From Saccharomycopsis phalli (lineage: Eukaryota > Ascomycota > Saccharomycetes > Ascoideales > Saccharomycopsidaceae), in contig CP073213.1 in the NCBI GenBank assembly GCA_020342235.1, positions 2,086,501 to 2,150,500 of the forward strand: a DNA stretch of 64,000 nt. The letters are read 5' to 3'. The translations under genes and the position numbers were made by a program. Below the pieces are notes generated by a model. That model saw only the letters and a program-made list of their open reading frames with translations, was not told where the DNA came from and did no database searches. Below are positions 22,187-64,000 of this stretch, piece after piece. Positions within the stretch are counted from its first letter, which is position 1. Each line of letters opens with the position of its first letter.

Positions 22187-22590
22187 TACTTTCTCTAGTA
22201 ATTCTCATATCAGACGCCTGATATTGAATCAGGTACATGCCTCTTGCTTACAAATTCTATAATGTAATAAAAAGAGAATTTTCACTTCTCGACTTCATTG
22301 TCCTGACTTCATTGTCCCGACTTTATTGTCTCATAGCTTATTCCTGATCCATGCTTTTGGCATAGGTATTGGCCTAACCAAGCCCATTTCCCCCACACAA
22401 CAGCACTGTCTTTCCCATAACCCCTTCTTGTTCCTATTACAACTTCTCCTCGTCTTTGTTGCCTGTTTTCTGGTCTAATATCCCGTCACAAAGTCAATGT
22501 CCTAGCCATGTCCATTTCCTTTCTACAGCAAGTCTCCTATTCCAAGTATAGCCAGACTACTTGAACAGTTGTGTGAATATATTTACCAGA

Positions 22591-22755
22591 TCATATTTTA
22601 CCAGCTTATATTTTACCAGCTTATATTTTACCAGCTTATATTTTACCAGCTTATATTTTACCAGCTTATATTTTACCAGCTTATATTTTACCAGCTTATA
22701 TTTTACCAGCTCATATTTTAACAGCTCATATTTTAACAGCTCATATCTTAGCTAC
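22591..22755. repeat. 15-bp tandem repeat between ILV3 and the copper ATPase
   Basis: Eight near-identical copies of TTATATTTTACCAGC (22591-22710), then two with AACAGC (22711-22740), then a decaying partial copy. The unit is divisible by three, so the plus strand stays open through the array as a YFTSL repeat, but no start or flanking coding signal supports a gene. It is 95 bp downstream of the ATPase stop codon. Confidence 0.9.
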
Positions 22756-22848
22756 CATATTACATATATCTACAACTGGACTGCGGTAAAACATACCATA
22801 CTACACCAACTATAACCAATCATATTTTGCTTTACTTAACTTGCAAAC

Positions 22849-28829: not shown

Positions 28830-31800
28830 GTGTATAAATAAATGTGATGATTAAGATAATGAAAAAACTATCAGCGAGTGTGAAATATTTATACCAAAAG
28901 TGAATCCTTTGTAATGTGGAAAACGCATAAAAAGAAAGTATTTCAGGGTCACTTCGGAACATCTCGCGACAGAAAAATCTTTGCGTTAGTGCGTCATGGT
29001 ACCGATGATTATCGACAATAAAGGAGAATCATGCACTTCAATGTCGTTCTCAGCAAGGTTTTTCCGGAAAAACCCATGTTCCTCCTACCTGACCTAAACA
29101 CTCACCAGACGCTCAGAATTTATTCCATTATACCACCGGGGATTCCCGTACAACCCACTGCCGCTGGTTTTATGGTAAAAATTGTCTTGCATTTTAGTAG
29201 CCTGACCCCGGGGTTATCCTGGCCGAAATTTACCAATTTGGACAATAAATTGGCCAAGGTCTACGGGTACATTTCCTAAAAAGAAAACCTATCCGCACCA
29301 CCTACTGTTCCCCAGTTCTTTATTATTCTGGGGCAGCAGATGAAGCTGGGGGCAACTCTGGAGTATCAAACTATAATATTAGCCGATGGCGTATAGATTA
29401 CATCCCTGTACGCACACAATTACTTGTAGCATTGGGCTATATGAAAATTCTCTCACGGGTAAAATTTAAAAATTTTTCAACCGGAGGGCGAAAAGACAAA
29501 AAACACTCCTTCAAAATAAAACCCCATTAAACATCCTCGCTACGGGCCACCCATTTCTCTATTTCAGTACGCAGAATACGCTAACTAAATTCCCGGGGAT
29601 TTTAGCCATCTTTTTTCCTCCAACAGTCGTACAGACTTACTTAATCATGCAGCACACAACCCGAGTTGTATCACTTTCCTGATACTCACTGGTTTCCATT
29701 GTCTGACGTTTTGCTGGACTCGGATCATTCAGAATGGCTCGGTTATAATATCCACATTAATATTCACCGGCAAAAGGAAGTTCCAAACCTACACTTCACC
29801 TTTCTTTTGCTCCCACTCAGCTACATTGCTATCTGCGATCGTGATACGTCCGAATTTGAGTTTCTTGGCTTTACTAAACCTGAGACTTTAACCTCCCATG
29901 CTTGGCATTACTTATTTATAGATTAAATATCACAACCGCTATTTGCGGCTTACTATGATTAGTACCAGCAAATACGGAGAAAGGAAAACAGGGCAGCATA
30001 ATTCCTAACCATTACATGCGAAGAGAACGGAAAAACATAAATGTAAATCTCGGAAAAAATTTTTTGAGACATTTTATGATGCAGCAATGACCTATTCTTT
30101 CCTTTAACGTATGCGCGAGTCACGTGCACGGGCAGATTAATAATGAAAAAATTATTTGAGGTCCGTTGCTTTCCCAACAAGAGATGAATTTTTCACCCGA
30201 ATCACAATTGACCGAACCGCATATGGGGCTTTGATTATTAGGTTGGTCTCCATATGCTTAGATAATATCGAGGTCTGTTACCAAGAGTACGAAATTAAAA
30301 GCGTTAAAAAGAAACAATGGGAGCACCATACTACATTGTATCAGGTCATTCATGCTGTAAAAATTATGAAGAGAGAAGGCCTCATTAGGAAGTTCCATCA
30401 TGCCATGGGAAACTTGGTCCCCCTGTAGTACAACAAATTGCCTGCTTACCTTTGTTACACATGATTACCCATTATCCTCTTGCATGCTCTTAAGAAGAAG
30501 CATTGCGCTTTGTTGCTGTTGCTGTTGAACTAGACTTGTATTTAACAGTAAATAGTAACTCGCAGCACTTGTATGGTGATGGTCATGAGCCATTGAATAC
30601 GCAGTGGGGAAGGATGACATTGATTGATTTGTTTGATGTACCATTTCCAAGTTAACCTCGAGTAGACAAATCACATTGTGATTCAGAATCCAAGGTCTTT
30701 CATGATGATTGGCAAACCAAAAACATTATGTGAGAATCCTAATGACCATATTCCCTCAAGAATCAATCAAATACAGTGTGTACAATCATCGATGCAGCTT
30801 TGTATATTAATCTAGATTAGCATACATCACTTTAAAGCCTCAAGGGCAGCTGTTGTGTAGACATCCCGTCAAAAATGGAAGAATTTGTGATTCGTGTAAA
30901 GTGACTAATTGATGCTACAAATCACACTGCCGAAATATTGTCTCACACTCTAAACAAGTCTTGAGTATGGACGCTGATTGTAGAGAGTAAACAAGTTCCG
31001 TGTCTGAGTATTTGTGCCAAATTTACACTTGGGTTGTATTATTTCTCAAGTCTCCAGCTGTTTATTCATTACCAGGAAGGATAATAATAGTTGTGTGCTA
31101 TGGCTATAATAGGCATCACCAGACATTAAAAAAAGCGTGAAAACTTTATTAGTTTACTGGGATCCACAGAGCAATCATCATGGTATTGGAATCAGTCAAT
31201 CACGGTATTGGAATAATTTAATCATGATGTTTGAGTCATTCAATCATGATGTTTGAATCATTCAATCATGATGTTTGAATCATTCAATGACGGTATTGGA
31301 ATCGTTGTGAGTGTATAATCAATTTTCCCAAAGCAGCCAGCCAGTAAAGATGTGATCCGTGCGGATTTTACGTTTAGCCGTGTACAAAGACATGACAATC
31401 AATTGAAGGCGATATCGGCAAAGATAAAGTCGAGAATGCTTCGGATCATATCCTAGCATACTGCTTCCATTATGGCAATCGGCTGGATTTGTATTTGCCC
31501 ATTTTAGTTTACCAAGGTGCGTGGATTCCATTGGAATGTTTAAAAGTGTTGGAATGACCGGATATACATGCTCCAACACGGACTTACGGAGCTATAATTA
31601 AAATCTATGTACGTTTGCCTAAGTTGAAATTTGTCTTGCTGATAGGCTCAAACACCAATATGTTCTCCACTTGAAGAGACAAAAAATAATCAATCATTCA
31701 GTTCCAAGCGACAGCAAAGTTGATGGGTGTACTTCACTTATCAAGTCACAGTTTACATCAATTTTCCTGCAACCAGATTAAAAACGGTAGCTCTATAATT

Positions 31801-35691: not shown

Positions 35692-37242
35692 TGGTGCTTG
35701 TGGTTACAGCTCAGCTGGCTAGCTCATTGCCGTTGGGAGGCCCCTGGATATTTCTCCTTATGTAATAACATCCTATACTTGACATGACAATTGCACCCTG
35801 AAGAGCGTAGCGACTTTTCCTGCAATGTCCAATGAATACTACCGGCACATATTTCAAAAACTCCTTTTCTTGCACCCTACACCGGCCATTCTGACGTTTC
35901 CACCACTGGGACATTGACTAATCATTAATCAGCAGCGTATAGCTCAACATATTGATCTACAGCCGGATATAACATGAGCAAGGCTTGGAATTAGCCTGCG
36001 GGTTTAGATGCAGTGGCAGGTATATTGTAGGCCGATCACTGAAGATTACACAACAGCACTGTGGCCAGAACATCATTGGCGTGTGTGAGGCTGAATATTA
36101 CGAGAGGAAAACTGTAAACAAGAGACTTAAACCAGGAAGATTGACGTGAAGGCGGTACCGGAGTCAAGAGGACGGTACGCTTGACTTCTGCGTTAATCGG
36201 TAATGGTGCGTTAACTTCTACGCAAGATCAAACTTTATTTATTAGATTAGCCAACCAGAAATGGTTTCAACAGAATATTTGTCGCCGTGAAAATATCAAT
36301 GGAATAGTAATGAATATTAGGAAATATTAATGGAATATTAATGGGATAGCAATGGGATATCAATGGGATATCAATGGGATATCAATGGGATATCAATGGG
36401 ATATCAATGGGATATCAATGGGCTATTAATTGAATATTAATTGAATTATGGAACATCAATTGGATTCCCCAAGTATATCCAGACTCCTCTGAGAAACATA
36501 ACCTACTACCCTTGATAACGTCTGATCATTTATTTGGACATATCTATATACTTGCCGACTCATGCGGATTTCACAGTGTATAACCATTTCCAAACCAGGA
36601 TACCGCACGGTTTGACACCTTCTGATTGATAAGGAGATTTGGCGGGTACCCCAAAATATTCCAAAAGAAGTAAACCAAAGGAGAAATGGAAAATTCCTTA
36701 AATAATACGTTCAAGTATAATGACTAGTCATTAACAGAGACGCATTGGTAGGTAGCCAGACCAATTAGATTGGCCAAGCCAGACCAATTAGCTTGAGCCA
36801 AGCCGGATCAAGCAACCGGAGAATGTGACCAACCAAGCATCCAGAGAATGTGACCAACACAGTATTGGAACCGCCAGGGTCTTATTTTCATTGACACCTT
36901 AAAACGGACTGGTTCCAAGCCACTGAATGCCCAATTGCATTTTCGCATCCCTATTGCATTTTCTAGGCAATCCAAACCACCTTAAAGTCCCAAACTCTAA
37001 TCAAGCGATCGGCAGCTTGTCATCATTGGCAGACAAAATGGAATGGGACAGTGCCACCATTTTGCTGTTTTTCCGAGATTACCTGGCATTGAACCACCAG
37101 TGTCCCACCATCAAACAAAACCGTCCGTTTGATACCAGAAAATGACCGATGCGCTGGGCATTCCCAAACCTTGCCAAGTCACGCCGGCCATCGGCTGGTA
37201 TATACAAAATGCATTACTGTTTCTGTATTGTAACCCTGTAGT
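35692..37242. other. Intergenic region, SEC12 3' to RME1 3'
   Basis: 1.55 kb between convergent genes, long for such an arrangement. It holds the 11-bp tandem repeat at 36320-36422 and a doubled CCAGACCAATTAG-type motif near 36758-36800 and AGAATGTGACCAAC near 36820-36855. No gene is visible. Confidence 0.55.
36320..36422. repeat. 11-bp tandem repeat GGGATATCAAT
   Basis: Six exact consecutive copies of GGGATATCAAT (36354-36419), preceded by diverged copies (GGGATAGCAAT, GGAATATTAAT) and followed by TTAATTGAATA-like decay. Confidence 0.9.
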
Positions 37243-43299: not shown

Positions 43300-43785
43300 T
43301 CATGTGGAACTGCTCAAATAGCGAGTATTGCATCTGAATAGTTTCATCTGGGAACCACTAAATAACTAAATATTGCATCAATTGAATGTCATGATGGAAC
43401 TGCGCAGGTATTGTGTGAATTGAATGTCATGGCAGAATCATCAATAGCGAGTATTGTATCAATTGGATATTATAGCGGAACTACTCAAATAGCTAAATAT
43501 TGCACCAATTGAATATGTCATGATGGGAACTACGCAAGCAAGTATTGTATCAATGGAATTATAGTAATGAGGAAACCACTCAAATAACTAAATATTGCAT
43601 CAATTGAATGACATGATGGGACTGCACAGGCAAATATTGTATCAATTGAATGATAGTAATGAGGAAACCACTCAAATAACTAAATATTGCATCAATTGAA
43701 TGACATGATGGGACTGCACAGGCAAATATTGTATCAATTGAATGATAGTAATGAGGAAACTACTCAAACACCTAAATATTGCCAA
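43300..43785. repeat. Minisatellite with 92-bp higher-order unit
   Basis: Two exact 92-bp copies (43569-43660, 43661-43752) plus the start of a third, preceded by about 250 bp of diverged copies. Each 92-mer comprises two related half-units of about 46 bp built on CTAAATATTGCATCAATTGA and CAAATATTGTATCAATTGAA. It lies just downstream of PAC11 and is non-coding. Confidence 0.9.
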
Positions 43786-43891
43786 CCATGCCCGCTTCTC
43801 AGATAAGGCAAAGCTTAAACTTATGATTCTACTCGTCGGCGCTGGTTGTTTCCCTTTTGCTACAGCACGTTAGAATCGCTGCCGTGCTAGT

Positions 43892-44118
43892 ATCCAGAGA
43901 GTGGCTCAAGACACCTCCAATATCCTAGGCAACAGCTCATTAATCCTCCAACGCCCATTAGTTTACATATTTAAAAGCTCTAGTCGAAAGTATTTCTATG
44001 TCGCAGAGTCTTGTTTCGACGACTACATAGAGCACCGCCCTCAGTCATGGACGGCAAAGTATAGATCTCCTCTGGGAGCCTGCTATAACTATCGGCTTAA
44101 TAAATATTATTATTATAT
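43892..44118 (+). mobile_element. LTR-like dispersed repeat, copy 2 (fossil)
   Basis: It aligns with 211-427 in the same orientation, sharing CACCTCCAAT, CCTAGGCAA, GACTACAT, TGGACGGCAAAGTATA, CTCCTCTGGGAGCCT and the final TTAATAAAT/TATTATTA tract. It is interpreted as an old solo LTR of the same family. It ends about 58 bp before the TSC13 start codon, so it now forms most of that gene's proximal promoter. Confidence 0.55.
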
Positions 44119-44175
44119 ATATTGCATCGATTCAACATACTCATGGCACGATCCGCCCATCACTCATAACCACAA

Positions 44176-45144: not shown

Positions 45145-46832
45145 ATGTACGTAGCACCCTGCGTGGTTCTGGGTAAATGTATACACCTTGAGTCTATTCG
45201 TATGTCAGGAGTACCTTAAAGTAGGGTCTGGAGAAGGTACCACGTATCCCCATGCAAGCACCTTTAGGTGGTATGGTTTGTCTAATTTGACATATCCGCA
45301 AACTGCGCGGCGAAGCTCACGGAGTGCTGGAGGAATTTCTACATACTCTGGGCATCTGATCAACGCCGGCACTACTGCAATAGCATCGAAAACGATGTGC
45401 ATACCAGTGTCTTAACCCACCCTATGAAAACAAGCCTGGCGTTTTGGGGCACAGCGCACGCATGTACCAGCTGTATCAATAGCATGTGCAGCTTAGTAAT
45501 TGAATGTGCCCAGAAATGTGGGAAGCAGCAGTCCAGTCCCACTTGAGTCGACAGACGAGAGCTTATACTGCCGATCTTTTTCAATAATGGCCCCGATTGC
45601 TCCTCAGAAAAGCCAAGCAAATGTATCGTGATGCTATTATAACAGATTGCCACAGAAGACTAAGAGCCAATGTTTCATCATTCAATTAATGACTAGTTTT
45701 TCGTGTGCTGTTATCTGCTATGCACTAGGTCGCTTCTTTAGCAAAAAAAAAAAAAGGGTCTGATAGAAACTCTTGTCATTAATATTTTAATCTTGTATCC
45801 AGGTCCTGAGGAAAATCGTTCTTCAGCATAACCGTAACATGATCGAAACACTAGTACATTACAACAATGCGTTCCAGAAAGTTTGCTGACTTGGTGTCGG
45901 CATTTATGAATTTCGCTCAGGCCTGAAAGGGGACTGTCAAATTTTTTGCATTTAGTTTAGAATTGATAGACCTATGTATAATCGGAACACTCATAATCAC
46001 GTACGAAAAGATTCTCACGAGTAACATACAGATACGGATTATGGGTTAGTTGCGGATACCGTGAATAAAGCTACTCACCCATGGGCATAGAGTTTGTACA
46101 ATTGGTTAAAGAATGGGCGAAACAATCATCTGGCGCAGTATAACGAGTTGATTATGTTTACTTTGAGTATTGTGTTGATTATGTTTACTTTGAGAATTGT
46201 GTTGATTATGTTTACTTTGAGAATTGTGTCAAGTACGTTTACTATGGGAAATGAACAAATTACATTCACTTTGAGAAATAAGTGAATCCTGTTATACCTT
46301 CACGGCTGGCAATTGGCTGTTTTCAGCTTAATCTCAAGACGCTGTTGCCATACCATTGAAAATTCATTGAGAGTTACCACCCTCCCATATGTACCTTTTT
46401 CGTTCATAGTAATAATCTGGTTAATCCTCGACAAATCACATCTCTTGCAAATCACCCAACCGATAATCACCAAGTGAATGTCCCGATTTTCGAGTCAAGG
46501 CGTCGCAATGAGAAATATAAGCTGAATAACTCAATTACGGATACACTAGTATATGCAATGTTAATTATACTCGGGAAACTTTTCACTACTATTGGAATCG
46601 TACTCTTCAGGGTGATGGATTTAGAAATTTCATTGATTAAATCATTCAGGACCGATAATATCAGATAGTCTTGCATTATCTGGTGCCACCAAGTCTTTTG
46701 CAAGTCATGCATCGGAAGTATACCAAAGATGAGTGTTTAAGATACCTTTTACAATATGCACTTTTTTTGACATAAATTCAGCTTATACAACAAGACAGTC
46801 ATTTAGACTTGATGCTATTCATAGCAAGGTGA
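45145..46832. other. Spacer between TSC13 and the Cys-rich GPI gene
   Basis: 1.7 kb between convergent genes, with a poly-A run at about 45741-45753 and a 27-bp repeat at 46147-46282. The open frames present look incidental. Confidence 0.5.
46147..46282 (+). repeat. 27-bp tandem repeat
   Basis: Three near-exact copies of a 27-mer starting GTTGATTATGTTTACTTTGA (46147-46227) and two diverged ones. The unit is a multiple of three and the plus frame stays open as a repeated LIMFTLRIV, but there is no promoter, ATG context or non-repeat sequence to support a gene. Confidence 0.85.
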
Positions 46833-53650: not shown

Positions 53651-54259
53651 TTATAACATGGCCATAAAACCAGCACCGGCCAAGAGAGAATAACCGTAAA
53701 CTTGCAAATTACCAGCACCTGCAGAGCTTCCAGAAGATTTTGCAGAAGAAGATCCTGAAGAACCTCCTGAAGAAGCGCCGGAAGAAGCGCCGGAAGAAGC
53801 ACCGGAAGAAGACTTGGCAGAGCCGGAGGTAGTCTTAGAAGCACCAGAGCTACCAGAGGCAGAAGCATCAGAGGCAGTCTTGGAGGAATCAGAGCCGGAC
53901 TTCTCACCGCTCTTGCTCAATTGAGAAGAGGCACCGGAAGCAGCAGCAGAGCCAGCAGAAGAGGCACCGGAAGCAGCAGCAGATCCAGCAGAAGAAGCAC
54001 CGGAAGCAGCGGACGCAGCAGCAGAGCCAGCAGCAGAAGTAGCAGCAGAAGCTTCAGATGCAGCACTAGATGCAGCAGCAGCAGAAGCTTCAGTAGACTT
54101 AGGAGTGGAGTCAGCAGAAGCCTTTCCGCCAACAGAAGTTTCGGCAGAACTACCACTAGCAACAGAAGCACCTGAAGAAGCAGAATCAGCGGCGGAAGCA
54201 GAGCTCTCAGCAGCAGCGACGTATGCAACGAAAATGGAGGCCAAGGTAAGAAATTTCAT
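53651..54259 (-). CDS. Ser/Ala/Gly-rich GPI-anchored cell-wall protein
   Basis: A 202-residue low-complexity surface protein: signal peptide (MKFLTLASIFVAYVAAA), a body made almost wholly of Ser, Ala and Gly with internal repeats (SGASSAGSAAA, SSGASSGASSG), and a C-terminal GPI signal (VYGYSLLAGAGFMAML). No cysteines. It is a typical small O-mannosylated wall protein. The internal repeats are near-identical at DNA level, so copy number probably varies between strains. Confidence 0.82.
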   Translation of the reverse strand: MKFLTLASIFVAYVAAAESSASAADSASSGASVASGSSAETSVGGKASADSTPKSTEASAAAASSAASEASAATSAAGSAAASAASGASSAGSAAASGASSAGSAAASGASSQLSKSGEKSGSDSSKTASDASASGSSGASKTTSGSAKSSSGASSGASSGASSGGSSGSSSAKSSGSSAGAGNLQVYGYSLLAGAGFMAML

Positions 54260-57200
54260 GACTAGCTTATGTATTTCACGATGGTTGCTGTTCCATTTAT
54301 ATATCTGAGAAAATCAGACTTGGTTGGTTGTGCGTTTGCAGCCTGAGACATTTACGCGCAACTGTCAAGGTCTGGAACGTTGTATGTGTATTGACTGTGG
54401 GGGCAATGTATTTTACCAAAAGGGCACGGATTGGTCGATAGCAGCAAAAAGGAGGCGCTGCCGAGAAACAATAGAATGGGGATGTAACTATCACACATAC
54501 AGGTATTTCACATGCTCTAGAAGGGCCTGCAAATATAGATCAATGCCCAGCCATTTAGACGTGATATTTCAATCTGGTATGGCAGACACGGTGAAATCAA
54601 GAGATTGTGTTTCCAATTAGCCATATGCTGCCTACTGCTAGTCAATCCAATCAGGTGTTCTGCAGTCACCTCCACATATAACGATGTCATATTGCAGGGA
54701 GTGGTATCAAACTACTGTGACTCTTTGGCGGAACACAAACTGCTTTCTCTGTTTATGATATACTGTTTCTCAAAACCGTCTGGCTTGTCTCAGATTTGTC
54801 GTAATTCACCACGAATCAGTGGTCTAGCTAGCTTTCCCTATATGAGTACATAAATATACATGATGATACGTGTACAATTTGATAGCAACATGGGCAAACC
54901 TAATGATATTGCAAAACATAGGGGAAGGATTGAGCCTTGCTGTCCTTATCAGCTCATGTAGCACCCCTGTAGGACACAGGGGTATCCCTTTTTTTTGTCA
55001 TTGGAAGTAAGCAATGCAGTCAGCTACGAATCTGCTTTGATATCGACTGCCAAGCAAACATGCACAATAACACAATCGGCTAGGCATATTTGCTGCCATA
55101 AATTACGGGAGTGTGTAGCTGTATCAAATCTAAAATTTTGAGTGCTAAAAATATTTACAGCAAATACCATAATATCTTGAGTACATATTGTTGTCGGAAG
55201 AAATAGTTGGGTAGATATTTCATGTCCAAACTAACCATAGGTAGCCCGATATCGGTACCCGTGCCCCGCTCAGACAATTTGTGCGACAAGTCGCAACAAA
55301 TCAAATATGCCCAAGAAACATAATAACGGTCCACGAAGGATATGGTGATTCTCCTATGATTGGAAAACATGATCTAACACCGACTTGGCTAGAGTGTATC
55401 TACTAGGCAAAATAAATGTAATGCAAGGTGCCATTAGATTCACTGCAGTGGGTGATTGATTGCCTGGATACCATATACATAAACAATGCAACCAATCCTT
55501 ATGGCCAATCATACGCGGTGAGCTTGTTTGGTTGCATGAGTGTATAAACTACGCGATTTACAATTCAGAGGATGCTAAAGATCCTTCCTCCTATATACAA
55601 GCAATTCTTGCAATCTCTCAACGCAAATAGCGAGGATATGCTATAGTATGCGAACCATATCGGAAACGGCACTAGCATAAAGATCAACGTCGTGGTTTAG
55701 TACGGTCAATGGCACCAAACCGAAGATCTACGTGTTTCGTCAACTACGGCAATGTGCCAGAACTTGCGTATTAAGAGGCCAATTGGGTCTATGAAAATTT
55801 TAGCTCGCTATTTAACATACGCCGGATTATTTCTCAAGCAGATCTATATCACCGGCAAGACCATGGATTAATCACTGATATATAGCTGAACTCAGCTATA
55901 TTTGTTACAAAGTACACAAATAACAGTACATGCCCTTTGGGGACTTGGAATCTCCAAAATACTCTGGGCAATTTAAGTACCGGAGATAACAACACGGTAC
56001 ATCAGAGTAGTCGATAGCATGAAGCTCCAAATCTTCCTTCTATCTAAGACATAAAAGCCTAAGCTAAAGTAGCATGGCTGATCAACCTACCTTTTGTGAT
56101 TTATTTCTGGAAAGCCCGTGTCTTCGCTATGTCGCAGAGAATTAAGGAGTGACTTTAATTATCGTGCTGTGTATTTCATAGATTCATTGCCACAGAAAAA
56201 TGACAGTAGTGGTAATGTAGAATGGAAATAAGAAGGCAATTACTAGAGCAGTAGCATTGTTACATAGAATAATCCACTCATTGAGGCACATCTTTCTTAC
56301 ACTTTGTTATTCGATTGATTTCTTTTTATATCTTTCGCGACGATCAAGCCCCTGTGCCATTGCCTAGCTTTTTTGTCTTAATCGCAATTCACTCAAACAT
56401 TCCTCCTTGTGCGAATGAAAATATTCAGCACCATACCTCTGGATCAGCTCTATGTGCCCCAGCCACGCTGGCTAAAGCGGAATTATTTATCATGTATGGA
56501 AATCCTTGGCAGTGTCAAATTCCAGACCCGTTAGAAAAATGGGCTGCCTACTTATATGAGTACGCATATGCACACTCCACTCCATGGGCATGGCAGTGCC
56601 TCCACTATAGAACTTAGAATACAAATTGGTTCGTCGAATACTCTAATTATTCACCATTCATCTAGTCTTGATTTCTCAGCTCAAAGTCTTGGCAGTCAAA
56701 AGTTAACACTCAATCGGGAAAACTGAAAATATATACCAACAACAGACACCTAGGGCTTATATTATTGAACACATTATCAAATGCTCACATCAATTCATCA
56801 CACAAGGCCTAGACCACAATTAAATAGTGAAAGTGCCAGTATGTCTGAAACAAGTTGACGGAAACTTGAGAGAAACAGCCATGGCTCATAATGCATGAAT
56901 ATTTTCAACTTTAGCGTCTAAGACATAAACATGGTGTCACTCAACGGTGAAAAAGACTGAAAGCAGAGCCAGATTCTTCTCTGAGAGCGCAAAAAAACAC
57001 TGATTAGCTTGAAGTGACACTGAATTTAACTTTAGCCTTGCACATATCGTTGTAAGGTCCATAGTTTATTTAACGATATGCCAGTGATACATCAGCTTTG
57101 TAATCAAGCATGGAATGAAATATAAATACATTGTGCTGGACTATAAAAATAATAGCATGACGCGGTCTACTACAAAGTGATGTTGATCAAGGGTATTCGC

Positions 57201-58115
57201 GCAAGAAATCAAGAGTTATTCATTCATCTGCTCACTAAATACAAAAGGAGCATAATAAATGCTCAAACGCTTTTTCAATCTTTCACTATGAGCTATGACA
57301 GAAGTCACCGGTTAGGACAAAGTTCAATAGAAGCTACTAAAATGTAAAAAGGTACATCTATAGTCGCCATATAACCATATCCAACCAACTCTACATTACA
57401 AGAGGACAGAAAGTTGATTGGTGAACAAATTCGATGTACCGCATTAGCTCTATATCTATATTTAGCACCATGACAATAGGAAAAGTCAATAAAAACTGCA
57501 ATGTTAGTCGTCCTGTCAAGTCCTTCTTTGAAAAATGATACCACTATAGACTGGTACAGTCCTTCCTATTAGAATGATACTCTGTGGGTATTATTATCAG
57601 TGCTATTTATGTTTCACATGTTTTGTTGTGTGGTTAAAGAGGCATCTCATAATCAACTTACATATCTGGAGTTATCCTGGCACTAAAGCTAATTCTGGGC
57701 AATTCAAGGGTTCTGAACCAAGATCCCAGAAAGTATAACGGTTGATTATTTGAGTACTATGTATCAAATATGGTGTGTCCAATGTGCATTACTGTGTAGT
57801 GTATGCTGTTTCTGGCTCTATAGGACTGGTTCTAATATAACATAATAAATGTTTAACGATGAACTAAAGTTTATAATATACCGCATGGGTCTTGCATACT
57901 AGATATGAAATATCGTTATTATGATACACGACACGTTTCGTACGTAGTATATCGTTTCTGTTCATTGATTCCTGGGCCGGGTACAAAAAAAGTCACGTTA
58001 CCAGCCGCATATCCCCTATTATTCATGTACCGTAACAAACTTGATGGTCGTCTAGGATGAAAAAATGATCCTATTACACCATTCCAGTTAATATAATTCA
58101 GAAAATAGGCAAAAA
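54260..58115. other. 3.9-kb region without a convincing gene
   Basis: AT-rich, with no frame over about 100 codons and no protein motif. The longest open stretches (54605-54853, 56315-56617, 57305-57544) lack ATG starts or family features. No long repeat is evident. It ends at a tRNA/LTR cluster. Candidate uses are a regional centromere, heterochromatin, or simply decayed sequence. Confidence 0.45.
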
Positions 58116-58197
58116 TGATAACGGCGAGATTCGAACTCGCGCATCCGAAGATACCAGGACCTTAACCTGGCGCCTTAGACCACTCGGCCACGTTACC
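58116..58197 (-). tRNA. tL(AAG): tRNA-Leu (AAG), copy 1
   Basis: An 82-nt cloverleaf on the minus strand: acceptor GGTAACG/CGTTATC with discriminator A, anticodon stem CCAGG/CCTGG around loop TTAAGGT (anticodon AAG), a long variable arm (TATCTTCGGATG) and T-arm GCGAG-TTCGAAT-CTCGC. No intron. TTTTT follows as terminator. An LTR-type end begins 14 bp upstream of its 5' end (58212). Confidence 0.93.
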
Positions 58198-58211
58198 ATG
58201 TGATGTCAGCG

Positions 58212-59229
58212 TGTAACGATAAAATATTGTTTACACTACACACGTGGGATACACGTGTTGGTCACATGGGATGACACGTGAACATCACATGCCAGCGTGA
58301 GGATAAGGGATGATGCCGATAGTGACGAGAAGGGAAATCAAAACACTGTTGAATAGAAGGACGAGTCAGGAAGAATCCCAAAAGGGATTTGAGGCAACCT
58401 TTAATTAAGGAAGTAACCCTGTCTCTGGAGTAATATAAATACAGAAGGAAATAGCTAATAAATCATCAAGTAACTTGGAGATACAGTCTGAGATAACTAT
58501 ACAACTTATGATGTACTAACAAAAAACCTTAGATTGTGATCAATCATAAGGAAAAACTTAATACATAAATACGGCCCACAATATGACGTACATTAGTGAA
58601 ATGTACTTATCCTATCAGAGTTCTTGGTCTCGTAACCACGATTATTGATGATGTGGTTGCAACCGGATGAAGCAGTATTACCCTACCTATAATGCCTTAT
58701 AAGAGGGATTTACTGCGCCAAAATATTTAGTTCAGAATTTTATATCTATTGGAACAATGTATAATTGTTGTAGTAGCTACTGATAGTTCTGTGCTCCGAA
58801 CCTACAATATTATTTATTTAATATTGTGGGCCGTATTTACGTATTAAGTTTTTCCTTATGATTGATTACAGTCTAAGGTTTTTTGTTAGTACATCACAAT
58901 ATTAAATAAATAATATTGTAGGTTCGGAGTACAGAACTATCAGTAACTACTACAACAATTATACATTGTTTCAATAGATATAAAATTCTGAACTAAATAT
59001 TTTGGCGCAGTAAATCCCTCTTATAAGGCATTATAGGTAGGGTAATACTGCTTCATCCGGTTGCAACCACATCATCAATAATCGTGGTTACGAGACCAAG
59101 AACTCTGATAGGATAAGTACATTTCACCAATGTACGTCAACTTATATCTTGTAGTTAACAATACTTCATATTGTTAATTAGCCAATTTATAAGTGATTGT
59201 AACGATACCACCAGGATTTTATCGTTACA
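58212..59229. mobile_element. 1-kb element with TGTAACGATAAAAT terminal inverted repeats, at tRNA-Leu
   Basis: The two ends are a perfect 14-bp inverted repeat: TGTAACGATAAAAT at 58212-58225 and its complement at 59216-59229, with TG..CA termini as in LTRs. GTCAG occurs next to both ends (58205-58209 and 59230-59234), a possible 5-bp target duplication, though two bases separate it from the left terminus. The left part has a TATA-like TAATATAAATACA near 58431, as LTR promoters do. The interior holds an interleaved inverted repeat (58510-59138). No coding sequence is present. The family is probably a tRNA-targeting, Ty3-like LTR lineage, or a foldback derivative of it. It looks young, to judge by the similarity of the arms. 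Confidence 0.55.
58510..59138. repeat. Interleaved inverted repeat F-A-F'-A'
   Basis: Segment F (58510-58584, 75 bp) is followed by A (58585-58828, 244 bp), then the reverse complement of F (58821-58895), then the reverse complement of A (58895-59138). Both pairs have identical lengths without gaps and are 96% (F) and 98% (A) identical by my count. The A arms can fold into a hairpin whose loop is F'; alternatively the F arms can pair around A. A simple palindrome would instead read F-A-A'-F'. Confidence 0.9.
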
Positions 59230-59333
59230 GTCAGGCGTCAAGTTCCGGACGTTGAGCTTCTGACCGAGGAAACATTCTAAAATTAAGAAAAATAAACCAA
59301 TAATACCCATTGAAGTTCAGGCTTGGCCAAAAA

Positions 59334-59415
59334 TGATAACGACGAGATTCGAACTCGCGCATCCGGAGATACCAGGACCTTAACCTGGCGCCTTAGACCA
59401 CTCGGCCACGTTACC
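59334..59415 (-). tRNA. tL(AAG): tRNA-Leu (AAG), copy 2
   Basis: The sequence is nearly identical to the tRNA at 58116 (same anticodon loop, acceptor and T-arm), differing in the variable arm (TATCTCCGGATG) and T-stem end (CTCGT). The cloverleaf still folds, with a G-T pair. Same orientation, 1.2 kb apart, so it is a tandem or dispersed duplicate. A complete solo LTR begins 12 bp upstream (59428). Confidence 0.92.
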
Positions 59416-59427
59416 CTTCGGAAACAT

Positions 59428-59714
59428 TGTAACCAGGAAGGTACACTTCCCTGGTTAGGAGAAATGATACAGCGGTTAGAGACCCTGGTTGTATACGTGC
59501 ACGTGATGGGAGGAAGCCCGGGTTATATGTGCACGTGAAATGAATGAAGCCCTGGTAAGGGGTGAGTATAAATATACAAACGGTGGCGTGAAGGAGGTCA
59601 CGCAAGGTTACGGTCATAATATTGTAAGCTTTGATATACGTGAATAAGGAATCACAGACGCCTTATTCAGCATAACCAGCGTTCTCAGAAGTAGATCGGA
59701 TCTAACTGGTTACA
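59428..59714. mobile_element. Solo LTR next to tRNA-Leu (fossil)
   Basis: 287 bp with inverted termini TGTAACCAG ... CTGGTTACA, a TATA-like GAGTATAAATATAC near 59563, and no internal genes. AAACA flanks both sides with a one-base offset. The position, about 12 bp from the 5' end of a tRNA gene, is that used by Ty3-type elements. It looks whole as an LTR and is related to the remnant at 61277-61484 (shared CCTGG..AGGGGTGA, CACCTTATTCAG-like and TCGGTTACA blocks). Confidence 0.75.
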
Positions 59715-60991
59715 AAACAAATTTATAATGACGAGTTGTGGATGGATAACCTCACGTGTCATAAACGTGACCCCAATTAAACATTGTGTTGTCTTTGACT
59801 GTAATCCGATCTACAGTAAAGTCGTATTGTACAAAAGGTATAAGGAGATAGAACAACTATAAAGTTGATTCAAAATGACTGTGTTAAGAATATAACGCCA
59901 CGCCGAAAAAAGTATAAATAACAGAAATAATAGCAAGAAGAAAAACGTGAATGTGATTCCATGATGATATCAACATCAGAAGTCTAAAGGTATAAGAACA
60001 GCAATGCGTAATACCAAATATGAGTGACCACGTTGAATTCCATGTAGTAATGTGTTACTGAATTAATCTCAGTCCATGATCAATTTAATGGTAGTGAATG
60101 TTGCCATCTGCTGAACCACAACACCGTAAGGTCACCATACACCAACTTTTCTTAGTGAGTGAGCATGATTAAACTGAAATATTCATGAATACTAGGGAAG
60201 GATAACTTAGCGTAAAAAAGGCCTCTCTATCACAAATAGATAGAAATTGGACCTCAATGTCTTGGCTCTGTCTAAACAGAGGGACAAAGTTTGAAATTGT
60301 ACATCCAGAAAACTTCCGTGGACAGAATATTTAGCGCAAATTTCCAGATGTGCAAAGTCTGTTATTTTCTCTTAGTGATAATGTAATGATGCTTTATTAC
60401 TATAATAATGATTTATATTAATTACTTCAATAGTTATACTGGGCTTCCCCGGAAGGAGAGATTGATATTTCGCCGCCTAAAAACTAAGGACCGCGTCGCT
60501 AAATTTGGAGTCAAGAGAAAACCATTTAAACGAGGAAAAGTTTTCGATTGAATCCTAAGAAACGGTTGAAGAATGATTTGGAAGGAGCTACGGAGTCTCG
60601 CACCAGAGGCACTACCTGCCCGGCCGCCCTTCGTGTGGAACAGTGAAGAAAAAAAAGACCTACCTATTCTACACTAACAAGTAGGATCCTATAGAAGAGT
60701 GAACTGCTTTTGCGTCTGTAAAGAGGCAGCGAATTTGCGCTCTAGTTATGAGGCCTTCGCCTATTGTTTGCTGATTTCGGAATAGCTCTAACCATGGGAT
60801 AGATCATGGAAGATAGCTGGTGTGGGATCCTCGCAATGGAAAGCTTCGAATTGCAGCTTGGCCAAACTGTTTCTTAGTGGACTTGATACCATGTTTTTTT
60901 CATGCTTTATTATAGGTAGATACTCTATCTTAGTTAGGAGAGATGGTGCAACAAGGGCACGTAACGATAAGCACAGGGATATATAACTAAC
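59715..60991. other. Spacer in the LTR/tRNA cluster
   Basis: 1.3 kb with no open frame of interest. It has a CACGTG-rich start resembling the interior of the neighbouring LTRs, and a GC-richer patch near 60590-60650. It may hold remnants of older insertions, but I cannot delimit any. Confidence 0.4.
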
Positions 60992-61276
60992 TGTAACGAG
61001 AAAAGGTCAAGATTACTCTTCACGTGATTGTACCCTGTGATAATGTTGTGATTGTGTTCCTTAGTACTATTGTGATTGTGTTCGGAGTGTCCCACATATT
61101 ACACAAGTACAAATCCATTCTTAGGAAAAGTATAAATAGCTGTTTAAGTCGCTAGTAATGGGATATCTTAAGTTCACTTTAGAACTATTTACAACTTATA
61201 TTTGTAGTTACTCTTATTATCTTATTGATTAACTCGATATAAGTGTTATAGCAGAAGCGTTGAATAAATTCTGTTA
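60992..61276 (+). mobile_element. LTR-like remnant (fossil)
   Basis: It begins TGTAACGAGAAAAGG, similar to the element terminus at 58212 (TGTAACGATAAAA), has a TATAAATA core at 61131-61138, and stops where the next remnant starts. Its length of about 285 bp equals that of the solo LTR at 59428. It is diverged and older. Confidence 0.45.
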
Positions 61277-61484
61277 TACTAACCAGGAGGGCGGGTCAGA
61301 GGGTACGTGGCAGGAGCCCTGGCTAGGGGTGACTATGAATATATACGCGGAAGGTCCTAGTAGAGGACACTCATGGTTATGTTAATAATTAGTGTAAACA
61401 TTTGTACATTGGATTAATGAAGCATTGTCACCTTATTCAGTATAATCAACACACTAGCGAGAAGATTGGATCCACTCGGTTACA
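61277..61484 (+). mobile_element. Diverged solo LTR of the 59428 family (fossil)
   Basis: Aligned features with 59428-59714: CTAACCAGGAGGG at the start, GAGCCCTGGCTAGGGGTGA, a TATAAAT-like core, CACCTTATTCAGTATAA and the final CACTCGGTTACA. It is shorter, with several breaks relative to the complete copy. It lies directly against the 60992 remnant, about 190 bp upstream of the Rai1/Dxo gene. Confidence 0.6.
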
Positions 61485-61671
61485 AGTTTTCATATTTTTA
61501 GTTATCTGCAACCATCTGCTATCTATACAGATTTGCACTGTAACTTGCAGTGGACTGTTATCTGTATAAAGCAAAATGGGGGTGAAAATCCATCAAAGGA
61601 AACAAACAATTTTCTTTCCAGGGAGGTAGGATCCTTGCTGCCAATATATCTTGTTGGATTTTACATATAGT

Positions 61672-62820
61672 ATGAATAGAAATTTTGAACATGGCAAGTT
61701 AAATTTTACTGATTACAAGACCCTAGACACTTTTGAATACTCTTCCACGCTACCAAAAGTATCGAAGGTTCAGGTAGGAAGTTTCAGTATACTAGATGGC
61801 TACTCAGTGGATCAGGACTTGAAAGCACATTTTGATGATTCTAGGAGCCTTTCTGTTTATAATCCACCCAAGATTGAAAAACCAATGAGTTTAATAGATG
61901 GATGGCAGTCATTTAAGGTGTATACATATCCACGAAACAAGCCGCGTCTTGAGAGATTCTTGAGTATGGTTAAACAATCAGAGGAAAAGAGCGGGAACAT
62001 TAATTATTGCGACTTCTATTGCAATAAAGGTATTCTAGTGAAGATTAGCTTATTATCTAGCAAGTATTTTTCGAAGGAAGATTTCAACGTCAACATCTAT
62101 CGAATCGGTGATGAAATTTTCATGAGTAATAAATCATTGCGGCTGAGTACTGTGAATCAAACTAATTGTATTGGGAAGCGCTTTGAAGATATAGTCACAG
62201 GGGTATCAGAATTAAGCAAGTCGGATTTTGCAAATTACAAGCTGCTTACCAAGATTTCCTTGAAAGAAACCTCTTTGCAGAAGGAAATTAAGCTTATATA
62301 CGCTGCAGAAATGGACTGCTGTAGGCTGAAAGAAGCATCAACTAAGGATCCAGAGAATTTTATAGAATTAAAGTGCCAATCTGACAAATCCAATCAAAAA
62401 TTTAAGGACCTGAAATTATTCAGAGCCTATATGCAATGCTTCCTTTCACAAATAAGTATCTTGGTGATTGGATATAGAAACAAGCATAGTCTAACTAGAA
62501 TTTCTACATTTAATGTGAGCGATATTCCATATAAGCATATTCAGGACACTGCATTGTTCAATGCAGAGAAGGCAAAGGGGTACTTGTTTGATGTTTTGAG
62601 CTGGGTCAAGAAGACAGTTAAGGAAGACCATATGGGCACTACTTGGCGATTAAGTACAAATAAAGCCATGAATCGACTAGAGCTAATATCAATAACCAAT
62701 CCCGAGAAACAAAAATACTGGAGTAAGAGGATTGTTCCTGCTCTGTTCGAGGACTACCGCAAGAAGGTGAAAAGTTATGATGTTGAGAAAATGCTTCTGT
62801 CGTTAAATATTAATGACTAG
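61672..62820 (+). CDS. Rai1/Dxo1-family decapping and 5' RNA quality-control nuclease
   Basis: A 382-residue protein matching S. cerevisiae Rai1 in size and core motifs: GKRFEDI (Rai1 GYKFETL), the metal-binding YAAEMDCC (Rai1 LGAEVDC), FIELKCQ (Rai1 AELKCT), and LKLFRAYMQCFLSQISILVI then GYRNKHSLTRI (Rai1 [20 protein letters not shown]). All the acidic and lysine catalytic residues of these motifs are present. Such enzymes remove incomplete caps, pyrophosphate or NAD from RNA 5' ends; Rai1 also partners the exonuclease Rat1. Whether this is the Rai1 or Dxo1 orthologue is unclear. The ATG at 61672 is used; the frame extends seven codons further to a TTG. It sits alone in an AT-rich, LTR-bearing region. 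Confidence 0.88.
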   Translation: MNRNFEHGKLNFTDYKTLDTFEYSSTLPKVSKVQVGSFSILDGYSVDQDLKAHFDDSRSLSVYNPPKIEKPMSLIDGWQSFKVYTYPRNKPRLERFLSMVKQSEEKSGNINYCDFYCNKGILVKISLLSSKYFSKEDFNVNIYRIGDEIFMSNKSLRLSTVNQTNCIGKRFEDIVTGVSELSKSDFANYKLLTKISLKETSLQKEIKLIYAAEMDCCRLKEASTKDPENFIELKCQSDKSNQKFKDLKLFRAYMQCFLSQISILVIGYRNKHSLTRISTFNVSDIPYKHIQDTALFNAEKAKGYLFDVLSWVKKTVKEDHMGTTWRLSTNKAMNRLELISITNPEKQKYWSKRIVPALFEDYRKKVKSYDVEKMLLSLNIND

Positions 62821-64000
62821 ACATTTACTATTAATCGTCTTGAAGCGAACTGAACGTCGAATGCGAACCGTGTGTAATATAAAAAGTAGGATACGAGTTG
62901 CTAAAATTGCTGAAAATACATTTGCTTGATAATTCAAAAGAACCACTTGCTAGTTATAATTGGAAAAATAGGGAAGATTAATCTTGGTAGTGACTAAGGT
63001 ACGAGTTTATAAAATGGCTAGAATAAATTTGCTTGACTATTCAGAAAAAAGTCTGACTATTTATACTTGGAAAGGAAAAGTTTAATCTTGGTAGATACGA
63101 GATAAGAATTGTACTAGAATGGATGAAAATAGCTATGGGACTTTATTAAATGTCGTGATGTACATGCGTAAACGTACAAAACGACAAGTAAATAGTATTC
63201 TTAGCATCACTACTGCTACACTGAAGTTATGCGATAGATGATGTGTTTACCAAGTAACGTATAGTTCTTGTCTTGGTTATATTGAAGCACACTATTATTA
63301 AGATCAAAATGTTAGACACAGAGGAATATTAAAGGGAATAAACACTAAGAATAGTGAGAAGTTACAAAAACTGTCAGTACCTACGAATCAGGGCAAATGA
63401 TCACTTTATCCAGTTATTAAGTTCCAAAAAACTTTATTTTATGATAAAATAAGAGAATCTTATGATATCATAGATGCACTCCAGCCATGGGAAACTTGGC
63501 TTCGGGTAAGTAGAAGCCACGGATTTAAAACTTTGTTACCACTGTGGTACTCTGTTTCCGGTTTGCTAGGCAGGTCTAGTAAAAGTATTTACCTCCCCAT
63601 CTCTGTGTGTCCCTTGTTTGAGAATCAATCCTAATATCAGGATGCACTTACTTACAGAAATGCATTGTGGATAGATACAATTTGGCTGCAAAATACATTT
63701 TCCTTTTGTGGTTTGTTCTAAGTGCCCTAGTCGATGAGGCGCATGAGGTACATTAATTTACAGTAGCATTTAGAGTCTATGACTGGTTTGCTATGTTTGA
63801 CGAGTAAGACACTAAGTAAGAAAGCACAAGAAACAACATGACTAAATCACGGAAAGATTTCAAATACGTTAAGAGCCATCTTTTATTAGCTAGGGTAATC
63901 GTCTGCATAAGCGATCAAACGAAATGTAAGCACCTTTACGGTACAATATTCAGTGGTCTTGTTAAATACGAAATTGTCATGAGGAGAGACAATACAAATA
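62821..64000. other. 3' flank of the Rai1/Dxo gene, no further gene seen
   Basis: 1.2 kb of AT-rich sequence to the window edge. It begins with the two 100-bp direct repeats at 62892-63094. No open frame with protein features is seen. Confidence 0.5.
62892..63094 (+). repeat. Two diverged 100-bp direct repeats
   Basis: 62892-62990 and 63000-63094 both begin TACGAGTT, contain AAATTTGCTTGA/ACATTTGCTTGA and TATAATTGGAAA/TATACTTGGAAA, and end TTAATCTTGGTAG. They are clearly diverged; probably an old tandem duplication. Confidence 0.75.

Follow-up and report, generated by a model that had tools for sequence, protein, structure and literature searches.

The interleaved inverted repeat upstream of a tRNA-Leu gene in this yeast is very probably a pair of solo LTRs belonging to one 313-bp family, with one copy nested inside the other. 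The window, that is, the whole stretch of DNA that was analyzed, comprises 64,000 bases (43.6% G+C, no N). A sequence-only reading had described two inverted pairs in alternating order at this locus, and both were found where it had placed them: a 75-bp pair, F (58510–58584 against the reverse complement of 58821–58895; 72 of 75 positions identical), and a 244-bp pair, A (58585–58828 against the reverse complement of 58895–59138; 240 of 244), giving the block order F-A-F'-A'. With its own extension, a repeat finder put the pairs at 245 nt (98%) and 88 nt (91%), and these were the only inverted pairs of at least 40 nt listed in the 64-kb window with a 14-base seed. The pairs are thus real, as had been proposed, but F and A are not the units: they appear to be the two parts of an older 313-bp copy, split at the point of insertion, the true unit being one 313-bp repeat present twice (Table 1).

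Table 1. Coordinates of the features at the nested locus, in positions of the window
Feature	Position	Strand	Remarks
tRNA-Leu (AAG)	58115..58198	-	ARAGORN; Rfam tRNA 58116-58197
Candidate older host element	58212..59229		14-bp perfect inverted ends TGTAACGATAAAAT
Outer copy, left TSD ACTTA	58504..58508		same as 59140-59144
Outer repeat, left part (F)	58509..58583	+	75 bp; joined to 58902-59139
Inner copy, left TSD CAATA, inside outer repeat	58579..58583		same as 58897-58901
Inner 313-bp TG...CA repeat, inverted (A plus F')	58584..58896	-	nhmmer model positions 1-313, E 3.4e-116
Inner copy, right TSD CAATA	58897..58901		same as 58579-58583
Outer repeat, right part (A')	58902..59139	+	238 bp
Outer copy, right TSD ACTTA	59140..59144		same as 58504-58508

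For comparison of the two copies, the outer one was rebuilt by removing 58584–58896 plus one 5-bp repeat, whereby 58509–58583 and 58902–59139 are rejoined (75 + 238 = 313 bp). The inner copy, on the minus strand, is exactly 313 bp as well. Once the inner copy is reverse-complemented, the two align without a gap and are identical at 306 of 313 positions (97.8%), all 7 differences being transitions; the best blastn match between them has an E value of 8e-123, far beyond chance. A cut-point scan was run over left cuts from 58540 to 58639, right ends from 58859 to 58928, and duplications of 0–11 bp; among solutions giving equal lengths, the 313-bp solution reached 97.8% versus 83.5% for the next best. 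With an nhmmer model made from the two copies, 58895–59139 matched model positions 69–313 (E 1.9e-90), and the full-length match of the inner copy listed in Table 1 is partly by construction. Both copies start with TG and finish with CA, as solo LTRs do, and the block common to them ends exactly with these dinucleotides; when each copy is taken in its own orientation, the neighboring base outside the block differs at both ends (A versus G at the left, A versus T at the right). A forward-strand search found AATAAA (at position 79) and TATAAA (at position 153) in each of the copies.

Each insertion carries a short direct repeat of its own, ACTTA around the outer copy and CAATA around the inner copy, as expected of the short TSD of a solo LTR. 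At the two TSD spacings, 5-mers match at 121 of 63354 and 98 of 63672 positions in the window; by the product of these rates, both 5-bp matches would fall at two predetermined boundaries by chance about three times in a million. The direct repeats in fact extend to 8 bp at both insertions (CAACTTAT and CACAATAT), with bases beside each 5-bp repeat matching too. Matching 8-mers at the two spacings were seen at 9 of 127030 positions, both insertion sites counted, and three extra matching bases at both sites are more than expected by chance. Part of this excess would be explained by an integrase that prefers A ahead of the duplicated bases and T behind them, a guess from two sites. A 5-bp TSD is usual for yeast LTR retrotransposons, and TG...CA ends with a 5-bp duplication are the convention for Ty solo LTRs. 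Because the common block is bounded exactly by TG and CA, 5 bp is the plainest TSD length. When inverted-end symmetry was scored, readings of 1, 3, 5, and 7 bp gave 6 to 8 of 10 matching end bases; a 7-bp TSD, which is symmetric and would fit both copies, may apply instead of 5 bp.

The length of these direct repeats also bears on the class of element. The insertion would be nested in just the same way if the 313-bp repeat were a MITE-like element, a small non-autonomous DNA transposon whose short inverted ends read TGAYGTAC, and several observations are in keeping with this: the ends of the repeat are imperfect inverted repeats (TGATGTAC and TGACGTAC, 7 of 8), the direct repeats reach 8 bp at both sites, a symmetric 7-bp duplication fits both copies, and a retrotransposon coding part is absent. 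An 8-bp duplication is typical of a hAT-type DNA transposon or MITE, and each copy should then have the same ends. Under an 8-bp TSD, however, the outer copy in its own orientation would lose T and CA and the inner copy TG and A, so that the former would begin GATG and end ACGT, whereas the latter, in its own direction, would begin ATGT and end CGTC. One element having both sets of ends is not expected. A DNA transposon with an 8-bp TSD was therefore rejected, since its two copies would receive different ends while the common block stops exactly at TG...CA, as LTR ends do; a MITE-like origin of any kind is considered unlikely.

The solo-LTR reading is drawn from the TG...CA ends, the short duplications, the 313-bp length, and the position 310 bp upstream of tRNA-Leu. 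Most simply, one copy of the repeat would have landed, in inverted orientation, within another member of its family. An LTR retrotransposon would first have integrated 310 bp upstream of the tRNA-Leu gene, duplicating ACTTA, and LTR–LTR recombination would later have left a solo LTR spanning 58509–59139 (without the insert). A second family member would then have inserted into the first LTR, immediately behind its base 75 and in opposite orientation, duplicating CAATA, and would likewise have been reduced to the solo LTR at 58584–58896. With the LTR denoted F + A', the reverse complement becomes A + F', and placing the latter at the F|A' boundary yields F-A-F'-A' by necessity. The layout had been put forward as an unnamed kind of element, a proposal that finds no support; nested insertion of the ordinary kind accounts for it, and a new mechanism is not needed. 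No gag, pol, or primer-binding site was found at the locus, the outer and inner copies both being bare repeats. We infer the LTR class, the exact TSD length of 5 bp, the loss of the internal parts by LTR–LTR recombination, and an integrase mechanism; the element may be of copia or gypsy type.

Self-insertion, template switching, or inversion between copies had also been suggested as the origin of the block order. The first of these comes nearest to the nested solo LTRs, and the other two are unneeded because the two different TSDs, ACTTA and CAATA, point to two separate integrations. A single event, whether self-integration of a linear cDNA, template switching, or a foldback-forming rearrangement, would be in line with two adjoining copies that are 97.8% identical, but it leaves the inner CAATA repeat and the equal 313-bp lengths without a reason, and a short direct repeat exactly at the ends of each copy, unrelated to that of the other, is a sign of two integrations. 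The foldback, template-switching, and self-integration models were set aside because each copy has its own TSD, and any such one-step origin is highly improbable. Least credible of all is an assembly artefact fusing two reads or haplotypes, in favor of which nothing was seen: TSDs at the exact ends of both copies would not be expected, and 7 of 313 positions differ between the copies, which are therefore not one contig end written twice. Flipping by recombination within the inverted pairs, raised in the sequence-only reading, is conceivable in principle, as for any inverted pair. It is very doubtful that recombination is frequent enough for cells to carry flipped forms of the stretch enclosed by the F arms, or of the short stretch enclosed by the A arms, next to the tRNA-Leu gene.

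No clear third copy of the 313-bp repeat was detected in the 64-kb window by blastn or nhmmer. Searched against the window, the outer copy gave 16 blastn rows and the inner copy 11; for each query, 3 rows had E values below 1e-20, all at this locus, and the remainder had E values of 0.05 or more. Of 5 nhmmer hits, 3 were above the inclusion threshold, and all 3 lie at this locus. A weak resemblance was seen at 63399–63475 when flanks were included in the query (E 0.007), reduced to 63425–63475 (E 0.054) with the repeat alone. An exact-pattern scan of viral contigs, a collection not expected to contain yeast DNA, gave 0 matches, and no paper on this 313-bp repeat was recognized in a literature search by general terms. 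Of the 40 ORFs listed with a length of at least 150 aa, 17 were scanned against Pfam; 14 were matched at E values up to 0.001 (one merely weak, below the cut-off) and 3 had no match, with no retrotransposon domain among the 17. Stop-to-stop frames of at least 60 aa number 29 at 54300–64000, and the 10 of these that were scanned had 0 Pfam families each; two further frames of the 29 (ORFs at 53651 and 61651) were, in their started form, among the 17 scanned ORFs.

The genes recognized in the window are ordinary cellular ones, including ribonucleotide reductase, mevalonate diphosphate decarboxylase, dihydroxy-acid dehydratase, a heavy-metal ATPase, tubulin, RAI1, and others. Chain 1fi4_A, which we take to be the S. 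cerevisiae mevalonate diphosphate decarboxylase, is matched by the decarboxylase of the window at E 8.9e-147, and the host, judged by this match, appears yeast-like. Two stretches elsewhere in the window, 207–426 and 43889–44123, are alike at 73% over ~235 alignment columns, each upstream of an ORF (679 and 44176, respectively), and may represent an old common repeat or a promoter block. Minisatellite-like tandem repeats were also noted at 22552–22780 (15-bp unit), 31177–31308 (22 bp), 36302–36455 (11 bp), 43526–43801 (92-bp unit), and 46120–46281 (27 bp).

Between the 5' end of the tRNA-Leu gene and the outer copy lie 310 bases. Two tRNA-Leu (AAG) genes are present on the same strand, at 58110–58197 and 59328–59415, 98% identical over 88 bp and 1218 bp apart. 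The perfect 14-bp inverted termini that had been reported around the repeat proved real: TGTAACGATAAAAT occupies 58212–58225, and its reverse complement occupies 59216–59229. The unit they bound starts with TG, ends with CA, lies 13 bases from the mature tRNA-Leu end, and measures 382 bp without the 636-bp nested block (one ACTTA left out). When the 493-bp inter-tRNA region was subjected to 2000 dinucleotide shuffles, 0 of them contained an exact inverted pair at least 14 bp long and spanning at least 200 bp. GTCAG directly follows the right end of the unit and also stands to its left, at a distance of 2 nt. On balance, an older Ty3-like LTR hosting the inserted pair, which would make three levels of nesting, is somewhat favored for 58212–59229; the main result of nested insertion does not need it. 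No clear relative of the 382-bp unit was found in the window. A short hairpin, TGTAACGATA-N12-TATCGTTACA, is present at 59198–59229, its right arm being common with the right end of this unit.

A second unit of 287 bp, at 59428–59714, lies 12 bases from the second tRNA-Leu and has 9-bp inverted ends (TGTAACCAG/CTGGTTACA); ends like these were obtained in 27 of 2000 shuffles and, taken alone, are weaker evidence. AAACA directly follows its right end and also stands to its left, at a distance of 1 nt. A 67.6% relative of the unit's last 167 bp, 170 bp long, lies at 61315–61484; with flanks in the query, the likeness ends one base past the right end of the unit (59715 and 61485), as expected of an element boundary. 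The units at 58212–59229 and 59428–59714 are weakly alike (61% over 100 columns; E 0.016 for that pair alone).

In length (~300 bp), TG...CA ends, 5-bp duplication, and position upstream of a tRNA gene, the two 313-bp copies resemble the solo LTRs of S. cerevisiae Ty1–Ty4, a likeness that rests on these features and not on sequence comparison with named LTRs. In one survey of S. cerevisiae, 280 of 331 Ty insertions were solo LTRs or fragments; solo LTRs originate when the paired LTRs of an element recombine, and ~90% of Ty1–Ty4 elements in S. cerevisiae lie upstream of Pol III genes within a 750-bp zone (PMC7175516); the 310 bp that separate the repeat from tRNA-Leu fall within the zone given there, which supports a Ty-like reading. 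The Ty1 LTR is 334 bp (PMC5911963), and a table in the same source shows Ty3-like elements (Ty3, Tca8/beta, and Ylt1) adjoining tRNA genes in several yeasts. The distances stated there are 6–30 bp for Tca8 and, for Ty3, 1–4 bp upstream of a start site that is itself ~10 bp upstream of the mature tRNA (PMC5911963). Like the LTRs of Ty3, Tca8/beta, and Ylt1 as described there, the candidate older host element starts close to a tRNA gene, 13 bases away; unlike them, its 5-bp flanking repeat is offset by 2 nt. Nested insertion of LTR retrotransposons has been proposed for one element of Saccharomycopsis schoenii and is reported as observed in S. cerevisiae and S. pombe (PMC13148404). The present locus is similar in having a younger LTR-type element inside an older one, but differs in that both would be solo LTRs, belonging to one family and oppositely oriented, so that the product looks like an interleaved inverted repeat.

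A repeat that lands inverted inside its own copy must give this seemingly unheard-of layout, and the TSDs make the order of events readable. The locus documents one LTR-like family in this yeast and may perhaps also mark a tRNA-flanking insertion hotspot in its genome.
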